Source of the DNA: Candidatus Tiamatella incendiivivens
GTDB lineage: Archaea; Thermoproteota; Thermoprotei_A; Sulfolobales; Acidilobaceae
DNA: 64,000 bases
Direction: 5' to 3'
Assembly: GCA_015522635.1 (NCBI GenBank)
Contig: WALW01000019.1
Coordinates: 62,001 to 126,000 of the forward strand
Shown piece by piece: positions 34,351 through 40,258 of the stretch. Position 1 is the first letter of the stretch. The number at the start of each line of letters is the position of its first letter. Position numbers and translations under genes: made by a program. The notes beneath the pieces are model-generated. The model worked only from the letters and a program-made list of their open reading frames with translations. It was not told the DNA's origin and did no database searches.

Positions 34351-34983
34351 TTATGGGTATATTTTTTCTCCAAGTTTCTGATAGCTATTGTCATATATTT
34401 CTTGTACAGTGAATACTATTGCTGGGTACCATGGATGCGCTCTTTCGCCTTCAGGAATGGCGTGCATTAGATCATGTACTAGATTTACATATTCATAAAT
34501 TAGTCCTGATTCAAGTATTTCTACGGTTGCTCTAATCTCATAGGCTCCCTTGTCAGGCGGGATTAATATTGCCAGAGTTGCCTGTTCATTTGCCGATATG
34601 TTAGTCCATGTGTGTCCTTTTGACATTATATGCGTAACCATTTTGCTCGGATCGCTGCATTCCTCGTTATAAACATAGTCAAGGATGAACTGCATTCCTT
34701 TCATTAGAGCTTGCTTTCCTTTCCCCCAATAGTCTTCAGCTATCATTTTAAGCTCGTTCAACGCTTTATCCAAGCATTCATCTTTTACAAGGTATGAAAC
34801 CATGAATGGAGCAGCGTTTATACCTGCTGGCCCGTAGGTGGCAACGATAGGTGAGAGAAGATAGCTTGATTTAATAAGCTCGCATTCTATCTCGGGTACC
34901 ATTCCTTTCTCCACTAAAAATTCAACTAGACGTCTCCTAGCTTTCAAAGTGTCATCTAGAAATTTCCTTGGAAGCTGGTTCAT
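34351..34983 (-). CDS. Hypothetical protein, last gene of the ECF operon
   Basis: About 210 residues, no membrane helices or signal peptide. Segments seen include LLSPIVATYGPAGINAAPFMVSYL, a helical middle LDKALNELKMIAEDYWGKGKQALMKGMQFIL, and a beta-rich C-terminal half (ATLAILIPPDKGAYEIRATVEIL). Not a family I know. An in-frame GTG at 34995 overlaps the preceding stop by one base, but GGTGA placed before ATG 34983 (MNQLPRKFLDD) makes that the better start. Cotranscribed with the metallopeptidase and the ECF transporter. Confidence 0.6.
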   Translation of the reverse strand: MNQLPRKFLDDTLKARRRLVEFLVEKGMVPEIECELIKSSYLLSPIVATYGPAGINAAPFMVSYLVKDECLDKALNELKMIAEDYWGKGKQALMKGMQFILDYVYNEECSDPSKMVTHIMSKGHTWTNISANEQATLAILIPPDKGAYEIRATVEILESGLIYEYVNLVHDLMHAIPEGERAHPWYPAIVFTVQEIYDNSYQKLGEKIYP

Positions 34984-34994
34984 ATGGCTCACCA

Positions 34995-35399
34995 CTAATT
35001 AATTGATTTCATTATGCAAACTTTTAACTTGTCTAGGCTGAGCTTTCTATAAATCGAGTTAACCTTCCTACCATTCACTAGTTTCCCATGCGGCCTTAGT
35101 CCACCGGAGAAGGTATAAGGAATATGGAGTAATTCATGGATAATAGTTTTCACTTGCTCTTCAAACGATAAATTATAGAACCTTTCACCTATAACCTCGA
35201 TGACATAACCAGGTTGTAACCCTGCTGCTATCCATGCACTGGAAAGGCCATGTATCCTTGCAATTGCCCTCGTCCTAGCTCCCCAGCTTGACAGACATTT
35301 TAATCTGTCTATTTGAACGTGAAGGAAATGCCGCTGGCTAATAATTTCTTTAATTAGACAACAAATATCAGGTGCTTCTCTGTATGTTATCCGGGACAA
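34995..35399 (-). CDS. Putative zinc metallopeptidase
   Basis: A 134-residue protein of the small 'putative metallopeptidase' type. The zinc-binding motif is IIHELLHIPYTFSGGLRPH (H-E-x-x-H with a third His about 11 residues on). The upstream VIEVIGERFYNLSFEEQVKT segment fits the family. Such proteins are found in archaea and phages with unknown substrates. It lies 5 bases behind ecfT and overlaps the next start; a link with uptake or processing of a transported compound is only contextual. Confidence 0.75.
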   Translation of the reverse strand: MSRITYREAPDICCLIKEIISQRHFLHVQIDRLKCLSSWGARTRAIARIHGLSSAWIAAGLQPGYVIEVIGERFYNLSFEEQVKTIIHELLHIPYTFSGGLRPHGKLVNGRKVNSIYRKLSLDKLKVCIMKSIN

Positions 35400-35404
35400 T
35401 TAAC

Positions 35405-36127
35405 TCACACCCAAGATGATATTATATATGAAATGATGGGGAATCCTATCGAAAGTATTAGTTGGACGATCGTTTCAATATTTAAGCTGGTAGATCTCCT
35501 TATAACACCTCTCTTTGACTTCAAACCATATCCCCTCATATACAGAGACTCAGCTAGTTCGTCTCCTCTTCTCAACATACTCAATGTTAATGGGAACAGA
35601 ACCTTATATACTGGCCTACCTAGACTTCTCTGTATACCAATCACCTGGCCTAGATCCCTAAGGGTTAAAGGTATAAGTCTGGCTAAAATTACATTATAGT
35701 CATGTATTCTTGGAAGCTTTCGGAACATGCTGGAGACCGTGACTGGATTAGTTGTAGTCATAAATGCCATCGATGAGACTGACATTATGTAGACTTTGTA
35801 GCCTAGGAGGAAACCTCTTACAATCCCGGTCAGAGATGTAATAGGATATGGAGAGATTATTACTACTATGAAGAATATGATTATTGCGGGAATACTTGAT
35901 AGTACAAGAATGTACTTTGCAAGGCTTTTGCTTGTTAAAGCCAAGTAAATGAATACAGGGAGTGTTGATAGTATAATTGTATAAACCGACTTGAAATAGA
36001 AGACAGATAACCATGCAGAGATAACCATGAGGATCTTAACTCTATAATCAATCCTCCAAGCTAGTCCTCGGGAATCTCTATATGCCGTAACATATGAAAA
36101 TAGAAAGAATAGCTCTTCAATCAGCAT
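35405..36127 (-). CDS. ecfT: ECF transporter transmembrane component EcfT
   Basis: A 240-residue membrane protein of the CbiQ/EcfT family, the coupling subunit that joins the substrate-binding S protein to the ATPases. Seen: YRVKILMVISAWLSVFYFKS near the N-terminus, several helices, and the cytoplasmic coupling helices with Ala-Arg-type motifs near RIHDYNVILARLIPLTLRDLG and AESLYMRGYG. It overlaps ecfA by 11 bases and the metallopeptidase follows after 5 bases. Substrate set by the S component. Confidence 0.88.
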   Translation of the reverse strand: MLIEELFFLFSYVTAYRDSRGLAWRIDYRVKILMVISAWLSVFYFKSVYTIILSTLPVFIYLALTSKSLAKYILVLSSIPAIIIFFIVVIISPYPITSLTGIVRGFLLGYKVYIMSVSSMAFMTTTNPVTVSSMFRKLPRIHDYNVILARLIPLTLRDLGQVIGIQRSLGRPVYKVLFPLTLSMLRRGDELAESLYMRGYGLKSKRGVIRRSTSLNIETIVQLILSIGFPIISYIISSWV

Positions 36128-37396: not shown

Positions 37397-38128
37397 CTAC
37401 AACACCTTTACGCCTGCTTCTCTTATGGCTTTCGCTAGGTATAATGCGACAAATAAGCCTATAATCATTTGCCCGAAATTAAAAGGTACCTCTGTTCCCG
37501 CCTGTGCTGGAGTTAGACCTATTATTATTATCTCATATAAATAGTATCCTAGGATCATTTCCAAGCCACCTGGTATTATACTATAGGTTATAATAAGCCC
37601 TTCTATGTCGTCTTTTGCGTAAAAGTATATTGCGGGGAGAGCGAGGAGTAATGATACTAAAGCCCAAAACCATACTCCGACATGGAGGGATACGGTTTTG
37701 CTGAATACGTAGAATGTTGCTTCTCCTGTTAGATACTGAACTCCAAGCCAATAAAGTCCTGCGTCTACTAGCCCTATGATCGGTAGGATGTATGTTCCTG
37801 TCCACTTAGATCCTTTGTGAGATAAATATAGGAATATGTAGCCTACTATGAATCCTTCCAAACCTTTGATAAGGAGTGTTCCTGGTGCATAGTTCCCATA
37901 ACCACTGTATATATCCGCAAGAGAACTGCCTATCCCTCCTGCTACAGCACCTACTAGTGGTCCTCCTATTATTGCAGAGGTATACACCATCGTCTCTCCA
38001 AGATTGAAGTAGCCTCCTGTAGCAGGTATTTCCATAGCTACCATTGTCGCTCCGAAGACTAGGGCTGTTAGGATTGCACTATAGACTATTATCTTAGCCT
38101 CCAACCCCCTAGATGACAATTCCTTCAC
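37397..38128 (-). CDS. ECF transporter substrate-binding (S) component
   Basis: A 243-residue integral membrane protein with about six helices. The start AKIIVYSAILTALVFGATMVAM carries the small-residue Ala motif by which S proteins dock on EcfT; FNLGETMVYTSAIIGGPLVGAVAGGIGSSLADI and PGTLLIKGLEGFIVGYIFLYL are the typical ECF S-component segments seen in riboflavin- and HMP-type proteins. Vitamin or precursor uptake is expected. Which vitamin is not decidable; the neighbouring PLP-fold regulator makes a B6 or amino-acid-like ligand worth testing (inference). Confidence 0.85.
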   Translation of the reverse strand: MKELSSRGLEAKIIVYSAILTALVFGATMVAMEIPATGGYFNLGETMVYTSAIIGGPLVGAVAGGIGSSLADIYSGYGNYAPGTLLIKGLEGFIVGYIFLYLSHKGSKWTGTYILPIIGLVDAGLYWLGVQYLTGEATFYVFSKTVSLHVGVWFWALVSLLLALPAIYFYAKDDIEGLIITYSIIPGGLEMILGYYLYEIIIIGLTPAQAGTEVPFNFGQMIIGLFVALYLAKAIREAGVKVL

Positions 38129-38193: not shown

Positions 38194-39429
38194 TTACACA
38201 TGGCCTAGAATAACGAGTGCTTTCTCACCCTCAGCGGTAATCTGATAAAAACGTCTACGGCCTACAACCAGGGAGGAAACCAAACCCTTCTCCTCTAGCC
38301 ATTTCAAACTAGAATAAACCGCTTGAGGGGAAACACGGCGGCTACCTAAGAGTTTCCATATCATATAACCATGAAGACGCTTATGTTTTTTAAGAATCTG
38401 TAGAATACCAATCTTAGTCTCACCCATCAAGGAACGAGTGCGGGGAGAAACAGTTTTCAAGCCAGTGCTCGTTATTAACACAAGAACCTTCCATTTTCTC
38501 TCTCTAACAAGTTTCCTTCCAACAATATAGCCTGCCACGGCCGCAGGCTCAGCAAATATCCCTTCTCTCCCGGATAACCTTATAGATTCCTCATAAACCT
38601 GTGGTAACGGAACGTATGTTCCCCATCCCTTAGTAGCGAGCGTTGCCTTATAGGAAGCCTTGAGTAAAGGGGGACGCATATACCTAATACTATAGTGTAC
38701 ATCTGACTCTGTGGGTTTATCTCCTGAGAAAAGTGACGCATAAGAACCTTCTCCTGCTTGAACGCCTATAATCCTAACATTCCTAACACCTTCTCTATTG
38801 AAAGCAGTGTATATCGAGGCTAACGTGGCACCAGAACCGACTGGAACTACAATAGCATCAAACGAATACTCTTTGATGTGATCATAGATTTCTAGACCTA
38901 GACCAACGAGTCCTAAAAGAGCATAGGGTTCACTATCCACTCTAATGTGTTTTACACCCTGTTTTGAACCTATTTTCTCTGCTATAGTATGCGTCTCATC
39001 CATAGTAGTACCCTTAAGAAGGGCCTTACATCCATATACTCTTACCTGCTCAACCTTAACAACATCACTGTCTTCAGGCAATACTGAAGTGCACGATATT
39101 CCTGCTCTAGTTGCATACGCAGCATAGGATGCACAGGTGTTCCCGTCACCTGATACAATTATGCTATCAACATGCGAATAAGCTAAGAATGAGATGCTGG
39201 GCAATGCAGATCTATCCCTAAAGCTACCTGTAGGGTTCCTCGTTTCATCTTTAAAGTAAAGACCTGCATATTCTATAGAATTGAATATAGGTGTTAATCC
39301 TTCTGACATAGAGATTCTTTTCATTATATCCTCGATAAAAGAGTAATCCTTTGGTATAGCTATACTCGCTTCGTCACTGCAAATCAGACCATTAACAGGT
39401 TCATCGCCACCAGGGCAAACCAAATGCAA
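38194..39429 (-). CDS. Threonine-synthase-fold protein with lost PLP lysine, fused to a winged helix; putative ligand-sensing regulator
   Basis: A 411-residue protein. Residues about 1-340 are a fold-type-II PLP enzyme domain like threonine synthase: KDETRNPTGSFRDRS, the substrate loop SGDGNTCASYAAYA, and the phosphate-binding loop PVGSGATLASIY. The lysine that should form the Schiff base (SFKDR) is Arg, coded AGG. The N-terminal zinc-knuckle region is reduced to two cysteines. Residues about 345-411 form a PadR-like winged helix (LHGYMIWKLLGSRRVSPQAVYSSLKWLEEKGLV and a basic wing VVGRRRFYQIT). It therefore looks like a transcription factor whose enzyme fold binds a ligand instead of catalysing. 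Start TTG 39429 behind GAGGGA. It heads the ECF operon, 65 bases before ecfS. Confidence 0.8.
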   Translation of the reverse strand: MHLVCPGGDEPVNGLICSDEASIAIPKDYSFIEDIMKRISMSEGLTPIFNSIEYAGLYFKDETRNPTGSFRDRSALPSISFLAYSHVDSIIVSGDGNTCASYAAYATRAGISCTSVLPEDSDVVKVEQVRVYGCKALLKGTTMDETHTIAEKIGSKQGVKHIRVDSEPYALLGLVGLGLEIYDHIKEYSFDAIVVPVGSGATLASIYTAFNREGVRNVRIIGVQAGEGSYASLFSGDKPTESDVHYSIRYMRPPLLKASYKATLATKGWGTYVPLPQVYEESIRLSGREGIFAEPAAVAGYIVGRKLVRERKWKVLVLITSTGLKTVSPRTRSLMGETKIGILQILKKHKRLHGYMIWKLLGSRRVSPQAVYSSLKWLEEKGLVSSLVVGRRRFYQITAEGEKALVILGHV

Positions 39430-39529
39430 CAGTATCCCTCAAGTAAACCGGATAATTGCCGGGAGAGACCCTTTCATCCCAAGCCGGATAAAGCCGGCTG
39501 TCGGGGCCTACCCTAATTTCATTATTTAA
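39430..39529 (-). promoter_or_regulatory. Promoter and structured leader/operator of the PLP-fold regulator gene
   Basis: On the minus strand a TATA-like TTAAATAAT (39529-39521) predicts transcription start near 39499, leaving a leader of about 70 bases before TTG 39429, long for an archaeal gene. The leader is GC-rich and holds two hairpins of similar sequence: AGCCGG-CUUUAU-CCGGCU (39498-39481) and CCGG-CAAUUAU-CCGG (39463-39449), with GGGUCUCUCCC between. The same bases are also two inverted repeats CCGG-N6/7-CCGG in DNA, so they could be a riboswitch-like element or a tandem operator. I do not recognise a known riboswitch on either strand. Confidence 0.5.
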
Positions 39530-39673
39530 GAAAGAAGGGATATAATGATTATTCTTACAGGTAGATTCCAGTGAGACTATACAGATGCCAGACTAATAGC
39601 AGGGAATATCGGTTTACTTGAAGCAAAAAGGTTGCAAAAACCCTATATACAGGTTTACAGCGGTAAATAACTT

Positions 39674-40258
39674 GTAACAGTTAGTAAGCTTTTGAGTAGG
39701 TTTCTCAGATTAGAACACGATAGATATTAAGGTAAATATGGATAAGCTTGGTTGAGTTAAATTAGATGAACTCCTTCAAAATCTGAGGAATATACCTGGA
39801 AACACTGTAAAAATGACAGGGAGATTGTACTTGGAATAATCAAATCGATCTAAAAATTCCGCTTTGAATATAGATCAGGGGAAATAAGAGCAAGGTACTG
39901 TCATAGCATAGAAGTTAGCGTGGAATACGAGGAAGTGGAACCTCAGGCATCATTTCATGGAACAAGAATGAATAAACTAATGAGTATGCGTGCTAAGGGT
40001 TTAATGCCTGGAAAACGCGTTTATGCCCATTTATCTCCTACACCTGAAGATGGCTGCGCTGTTGCTAAACGTGGAAAAGGATCAACTGTTTACTTGATCA
40101 TTAATTGTTTAAACTCCGTAAACTCAGGTATGGAGTATATAAAGCCACGACTAAAGTTTTCCCCGTAAAGAAGGTGCACCACTCAGCCATGCAGGAATAC
40201 CATAAGTGTATTTGACTCCTTCTATGATTTACGGGGAAGACTAAATGTGACTCTCTAA
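39674..40258 (+). pseudogene. kptA: Decayed kptA, RNA 2'-phosphotransferase (Tpt1 family)
   Basis: Translating across frames recovers the whole family pattern. VSKLLSRFLRLEHDRY (39680 on) matches the LSKxLxxxLRH start; MDKLG(stop)VKLDELLQNL (39738 on) is the DxxGWVxVdeLL motif with Trp changed to TGA. Next are KFRFEYRSGEIRARYCHSIEVSVE (39854 on; given in part), then FHGT, GLMPGKRVYAHLS and AKRGKG. Lesions: TAA 39728, +1 frameshift near 39735, TGA 39753, a second frame change near 39835, TAA 39851, and an 83-bp insertion at 40156. Without the insertion the 3' end reads IKPRLNVTL then stop, resembling the family's VYLT segment. A TATA box CTATATAC at about 39643-39650 still precedes it. Bases 39535-39673 hold nothing else. 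Confidence 0.82.
40156..40238. mobile_element. MITE-like 83-bp insertion with inverted ends and 7-bp target duplication
   Basis: Ends carry an 11-bp perfect inverted repeat: TTCCCCGTAAA (40159-40169) and TTTACGGGGAA (40228-40238), extended inward by GAAGG/CCTTC with a 5-base bulge. The element is flanked by the direct repeat GACTAAA (40149-40155 and 40239-40245), as expected of a target-site duplication. Removing the element plus one repeat restores the kptA reading frame to its natural C-terminus. It has no coding capacity, so a transposase would have to act in trans. Confidence 0.65.

Follow-up and report, generated by a model that had tools for sequence, protein, structure and literature searches.

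In bacteria, vitamin B6 synthesis and uptake are controlled by PdxR, a regulator of the MocR class, in which the fold of a pyridoxal phosphate (PLP) enzyme serves as sensor and is joined to a winged helix. Archaea possess a vitamin regulator that likewise combines an enzyme domain with a winged helix, namely RbkR, a riboflavin kinase that keeps its kinase activity. The regulons of bacterial PdxR include the transporter gene pdxU, and Archaea are reported to have no MocR regulators (PMC5320631). About 10% of organisms depend on B6 salvage, for which transporters are mostly unknown, the B6 transporters of family PF07155 being PdxU and PdxU2/HmpT (PMC9997740).

We analyzed a stretch of 64,000 nucleotides from Candidatus Tiamatella incendiivivens (contig WALW01000019.1, positions 62,001 to 126,000; hereafter the window), taken from a genome (G000) of 1.45 Mb in 27 contigs. 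It encodes a fusion protein, FUS, that by prediction resembles PdxR in using a PLP-enzyme fold as the sensor of a winged-helix regulator, and resembles RbkR in its proposed role as an archaeal vitamin regulator. MocR proteins carry a fold-type-I aminotransferase domain and an N-terminal GntR winged helix, whereas FUS combines a fold-type-II domain (PF00291) with a C-terminal PadR domain and has lost the catalytic lysine; since it has neither fold type I nor an N-terminal GntR domain, FUS is not a member of the MocR class. RbkR concerns riboflavin and is an active kinase, whereas the enzyme domain of FUS is predicted to be inactive. FUS shares fold and ancestry with threonine synthase (TIGR00260; PRK05638), but is without the PLP lysine and the substrate-phosphate arginine, and bears the winged helix in addition. 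In the open-licence literature we found no publication on a threonine-synthase/winged-helix fusion or on a regulator of fold type II.

A threonine synthase fold without its lysine

The FUS reading frame starts with TTG at 39429, ends at 38194, and runs through 411 codons without an internal stop (Table 1). An earlier note on this DNA had claimed that AGG replaces the lysine codon of a threonine-synthase-like domain, that both ligand loops are kept, and that a winged helix follows, all of which was borne out. The catalytic lysine of NPTGSFKDR is missing, and the motif reads NPTGSFRDR with Arg71; the PVGSGAT and SGDGNT loops are both present; and the PadR-type winged helix passes its Pfam cut-off (34.8 bits vs. 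27), with individual PadR matches in 47 of 49 family members. Codon 71 is AGG in one sister species (L077) and AGA in another (L078). A read error at this codon was ruled out by the loss of lysine in these two species and in most relatives. Structure prediction, a check that the note had proposed, gave a confident threonine-synthase-like model (AlphaFold2, 49-row alignment; pLDDT 90.8, pTM 0.80). Its best PDB matches were the threonine synthases of Aquifex, Bacillus, Mycobacterium and Thermus (E about 1e-20), and the closest entry by fold was threonine synthase 2zsj (best E 1.2e-20).

Table 1. Features of the FUS locus, in coordinates of the window
Feature	Position	Strand	Remarks
FUS fusion protein, 411 aa	38194..39429	-	PLP fold-type-II domain + PadR winged helix; predicted B6-responsive regulator
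PALP (fold-type-II) domain, aa 40-318	38476..39312	-	Pfam PF00291, E 3.9e-44
PadR-like winged helix, aa 342-405	38215..38406	-	PF03551, E 1.7e-8
Codon 71, AGG = Arg	39217..39219	-	PLP Schiff-base Lys position of threonine synthases
SGDGNT substrate/PLP loop, aa 93-98	39136..39153	-	Asn97 kept
PVGSGAT PLP phosphate loop, aa 196-202	38824..38844	-	
ECF S component, PF07155 (PdxU/HmpT family)	37397..38128	-	predicted B6-binding subunit; Pfam E 6.4e-28
ECF ATPase, 424 aa	36117..37391	-	two ABC domains in a single chain
EcfT-like transmembrane subunit	35405..36127	-	weak CbiQ match, below cut-off
Small metallopeptidase-like protein, PF18894	34995..35399	-	at operon end; kept in sister species
Conserved protein, 214 aa	34351..34995	-	closes operon; weak PNPOx_N match only
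H/ACA-like guide RNA	39458..39513	-	just upstream of FUS; independent RNA gene, outside the mechanism
Tpt1/KptA (RNA 2'-phosphotransferase, PF01885) remnant	39647-40209	+	several in-frame stops, frame change

Genome and named-contig searches placed relatives of FUS in Desulfurococcales, Bathyarchaeota, MAGs labelled Thermococcus, Heimdall- and Njordarchaeota, Geothermarchaeota and Nitrososphaerales. The search patterns were KDE[GTS]RNPT and a winged-helix motif, and the catalytic column lies outside both. In that column 85 of 90 distinct fused proteins were without lysine, the residues being R (67), I (6), K (5), Y (3), M (3), L (2), V (2), F (1) and S (1). Unfused relatives with the column intact were all K, except for two R proteins cut by contig ends; after distant paralogues and truncated rows were taken out, lysine occupied the column in 41/41 unfused threonine synthases, compared with 5/90 fused homologues. 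A tree of the catalytic domain that omitted the lysine column explains the fusion by about one to two changes (two for the fused label). The K label takes three, and two long-branch unfused rows are involved in one of these. Given the contrast between 41/41 and 5/90, together with the small number of changes on the tree, the state without lysine is not attributable to chance.

The remainder of the cofactor pocket is largely retained. N97 was present in 86/90 fused and 40/41 unfused proteins, while in the fused set G198, G200 and T320 were found in 86, 90 and 85 of 90, respectively. The arginine of the YRLEG segment, which on the basis of Thermus ThrC we take to bind the substrate phosphate, was present in 30 of 41 unfused proteins and in none of the 90 fused ones, the window protein having Ala170 at this position. 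Judged from these residues, losing both the catalytic lysine and the substrate arginine while keeping the cofactor pocket is what would be expected of a putative cofactor sensor, not of gene decay. PDB titles record fold-type-II mutants with lysine changed to alanine that were crystallized with substrate (e.g., 3x44, K43A), which suggests that lysine-less pockets of this fold can hold a ligand.

Could FUS nevertheless be an active, autoregulated PLP enzyme with a winged helix, working through another residue or, in the K-type members, through a regained lysine? Lys60 is invariant in the fused proteins, five of which have lysine at the catalytic position, and the NCBI name of the family is that of an enzyme. 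However, ordinary threonine synthases have the same invariant Lys60, which is therefore no replacement; many different residues occupy the catalytic position (R, I, Y, M, L, V, F, S), the substrate arginine is gone, and the genome has a thrC of its own. We therefore consider an active enzyme very unlikely. After thinning, four fused K-type proteins were left in the tree, and these group in a single clade (SH-aLRT 100), so that lysine was either regained or kept once there; for the five K-type members their sequences indicate that a Schiff base might still be conceivable. The earlier note had named SFKDR homologues with demonstrated threonine synthase activity in the same operon context as a finding that would speak against a regulator. 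Fused proteins with the lysine exist, but among the five K-type loci (L082, L091, L100, L104 and L124) the S component adjoins the fusion only at L091, two others being short-flanked, and the objection is accordingly marginal. Several of the five loci lie near an ilvD-like gene.

The enzyme name itself comes from NCBIfam PRK05638 (NF004170), called 'threonine synthase', which is the full-length model of the fusion family. The window protein matched this model over aa 32-404 and scored below its cut-off (208.8 vs. 421), as it also did with the threonine synthase model TIGR00260 (68.3 vs. 167.1). The best PRK05638 matches among our genomes, which resemble Staphylothermus marinus and S. hellenicus and exceed the cut-off, are without the catalytic lysine, and for this reason the name of NF004170 is probably wrong. 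The window genome has a separate thrC beside thrB (contig C17), and the fusion is therefore unneeded as a threonine synthase.

Linkage to a predicted B6 importer of the ECF type

FUS is the first gene of a tightly packed run on the minus strand, consistent with its earlier placement at the head of an ECF operon. It is followed by the S component after a gap of 65 bp, and then by the ATPase, the EcfT-like subunit and two small ORFs. The last of these (34351-34995) was considered as a pyridoxamine-phosphate oxidase; this was rejected, as the PNPOx_N match is absent from an orthologue with 79% identity and the same gene also occurs in fusion-free genomes.

Neighbourhoods of 81 fusion loci, including a few duplicates between collections, were read by clustering of neighbours and by a scan with an S-component profile. 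In 45 of the 81 the S component lay directly downstream of the fusion in the same orientation, in nearly all cases no more than 160 bp away, and four loci had other arrangements (two divergent, one upstream and one convergent). Eight loci were too short to judge, and in 24 of the 81, all with enough flank, the profile scan found no S component near the fusion. Conserved linkage to ECF genes, which the earlier note had suggested looking for, thus extends across distant archaea. The order in Desulfurococcales is FUS, S component, ATPase, T subunit, and the usual order in Bathyarchaeota is FUS, S component, AIRS-family protein.

The AIRS-family gene, whose relatives include HypE and ThiL, came immediately after the S component at 15 of the 36 loci that have one. 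These 15 (L101:12069-13082 and 14 similar loci) are nearly all from Bathyarchaeota. The product of the gene is a candidate for a missing archaeal B6 salvage kinase.

These data also bear on the view that FUS has no role on the ECF genes, the linkage being due to chance or the targets of the winged helix being distant only. The 24 loci without a nearby S component are in keeping with this view, as is the visual inspection of the regions upstream of 26 fusion genes, in which no shared operator motif was seen. Against it, the same S-component family is linked to the fusion in Desulfurococcales, Bathyarchaeota and Njordarchaeota in differing gene orders, divergent ones included, and we regard it as most improbable.

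Two further elements lie upstream of FUS. A block conserved in the FUS leader (39458-39513), whose fold includes two covarying pairs, was rejected as a riboswitch: it resembles the H/ACA-like Pyrobaculum RNA PyrR210 (below threshold, at 19.8 bits), and related genomes have it at sites apart from FUS. H/ACA-like RNA matches were obtained in 20 of 60 relatives, in single copy in most. The neighbouring Tpt1/KptA gene is a pseudogene in the window genome and intact at the sister loci L077 and L078.

The S component shares PF07155 membership with HmpT/PdxU2 and PdxU, and HmpT is its nearest solved structure. A profile of 24 sequences matched a single PDB chain, 4hzu_S (E 7e-17), which was also the sole significant PDB match of the predicted structure (pLDDT 89.9). 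The protein in this chain, HmpT/PdxU2, binds pyridoxamine according to mass spectrometry (PMC4860826). Four of the six binding residues of HmpT are identical in the archaeal protein: E41, Y120, N140 and Q143 correspond to E45, Y195, N217 and Q220, each invariant in 24/24 sequences. The other two, H84 and Q87, are replaced by K88 and E91, both of them also invariant, and consequently the exact vitamer may differ. Several S-component families show conservation at these positions, so that the sequence does not fix the substrate, and the archaeal S component is a predicted B6 vitamer binder. Unlike HmpT/PdxU2 and PdxU, the Desulfurococcales S component has a dedicated ATPase and T subunit alongside.

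Regulation of another vitamin was weighed against these observations, most likely thiamine or its pyrimidine precursor, or else riboflavin, with incidental use of a PLP-like pocket. HmpT was originally named for hydroxymethylpyrimidine (PMC4860826), the Pfam name of PF07155 refers to riboflavin, and the relationship of the Bathyarchaeota AIRS-family gene to HypE and ThiL could be read in the same direction. On the other hand, RibU and ThiT, along with BioY and FolT, rank behind HmpT as fold matches of the S component, the sensor pocket is that of PLP, and the genomic association with thiamine synthesis is weak (see below). We judge regulation of another vitamin distinctly unlikely.

Distribution of the fusion relative to B6 synthesis

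Among 398 genomes of the phylum, PdxS, a subunit of PLP synthase, was present in 6 of 71 with the fusion compared to 180 of 327 others (Fisher 4e-14), whereas the ThiC control gave 25/71 and 155/327 (p 0.07); these and the following are raw genome counts, and the PdxS contrast is partly phylogenetic in origin. Within family f9, PdxS was found in 2 of 13 genomes with the fusion and in 6 of 8 without it (p 0.018), while the corresponding figures for the ThrB control were 3/13 and 2/8. The order sample gave 2/23 with the fusion vs. 79/124 without; when genomes were instead divided by the S component, PdxS was present in 20/63 with and 61/84 without. Many fusion-free genomes are also without PdxS. 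The fusion is thus almost restricted to genomes that have no PdxS, while ThiC and ThrB display no comparable link. PdxS was not found in the window genome, in its sister G001, or in G053, which we take to be S. hellenicus. Both G053 and G093 (taken to be S. marinus) carry the fusion, and G093 does have PdxS, in agreement with the published view that S. marinus is likely able to make pyridoxine (PMC2678158).

The distribution also speaks to the possibility that FUS regulates the supply of threonine or homoserine phosphate, in which case the ECF transporter would import threonine or a related amino acid. Homoserine phosphate was the substrate of the ancestral enzyme, and about seven Bathyarchaeota loci have a K-type thrC next to the fusion in divergent orientation (e.g., L093, L113 and L115, as well as L116, L135 and L188). 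Nevertheless, the predicted substrate-phosphate arginine is gone from 90/90 fused proteins, the presence of thrB is unrelated to that of the fusion in the family with the best sampling while PdxS does track it, and the S component belongs to a family of B6 transporters. For these reasons we consider a threonine regulator unlikely.

A predicted switch for vitamin B6 uptake

The conversion of an enzyme fold into a regulator, which was the central claim of the earlier note, is supported by the loss of lysine and gain of the PadR domain, the structure model and the ECF linkage, the regulation itself being predicted. Among the ligands that the earlier note had listed for testing (PLP, threonine, homoserine phosphate, pyridoxine or thiamine precursors), vitamin B6 is favoured because of the S-component family and the distribution of PdxS. 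On balance, we think it rather probable that FUS acts as a pseudoenzyme regulator of transcription, sensing PLP or an adduct of PLP and thereby controlling the uptake of vitamin B6, a reading for which we infer the ligand, the operator, DNA binding and the sign of regulation. According to this model, a duplicated threonine synthase would have lost its Schiff-base lysine and substrate-phosphate arginine and gained a winged helix of the PadR type. What was once the cofactor pocket would then bind PLP non-covalently, or as a PLP-amino-acid aldimine, and its occupancy would report the B6 status of the cell. The winged helix would bind the promoter of its own operon, such that the PdxU/HmpT-like ECF importer would be turned up when PLP is scarce; a repressor in its PLP-bound form would be the likeliest sign of regulation. 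A broader version, which we find quite improbable, holds that a widespread archaeal class reads the PLP-amino-acid aldimine, and with it both B6 and amino acids, in conjunction with a new B6 importer and the AIRS-family kinase of Bathyarchaeota.

If the B6-regulator model is correct, FUS would be, as far as we found in the literature, the first regulator with a fold-type-II PLP domain as its sensor. It would represent an archaeal counterpart of PdxR and a case of convergent conversion of cofactor enzymes to cofactor sensors. A B6 importer and the switch that controls it would thereby be assigned to archaea that are without PLP synthesis, and the apparent misnaming of the family as 'threonine synthase' would matter for metabolic models of Bathyarchaeota and Desulfurococcales.
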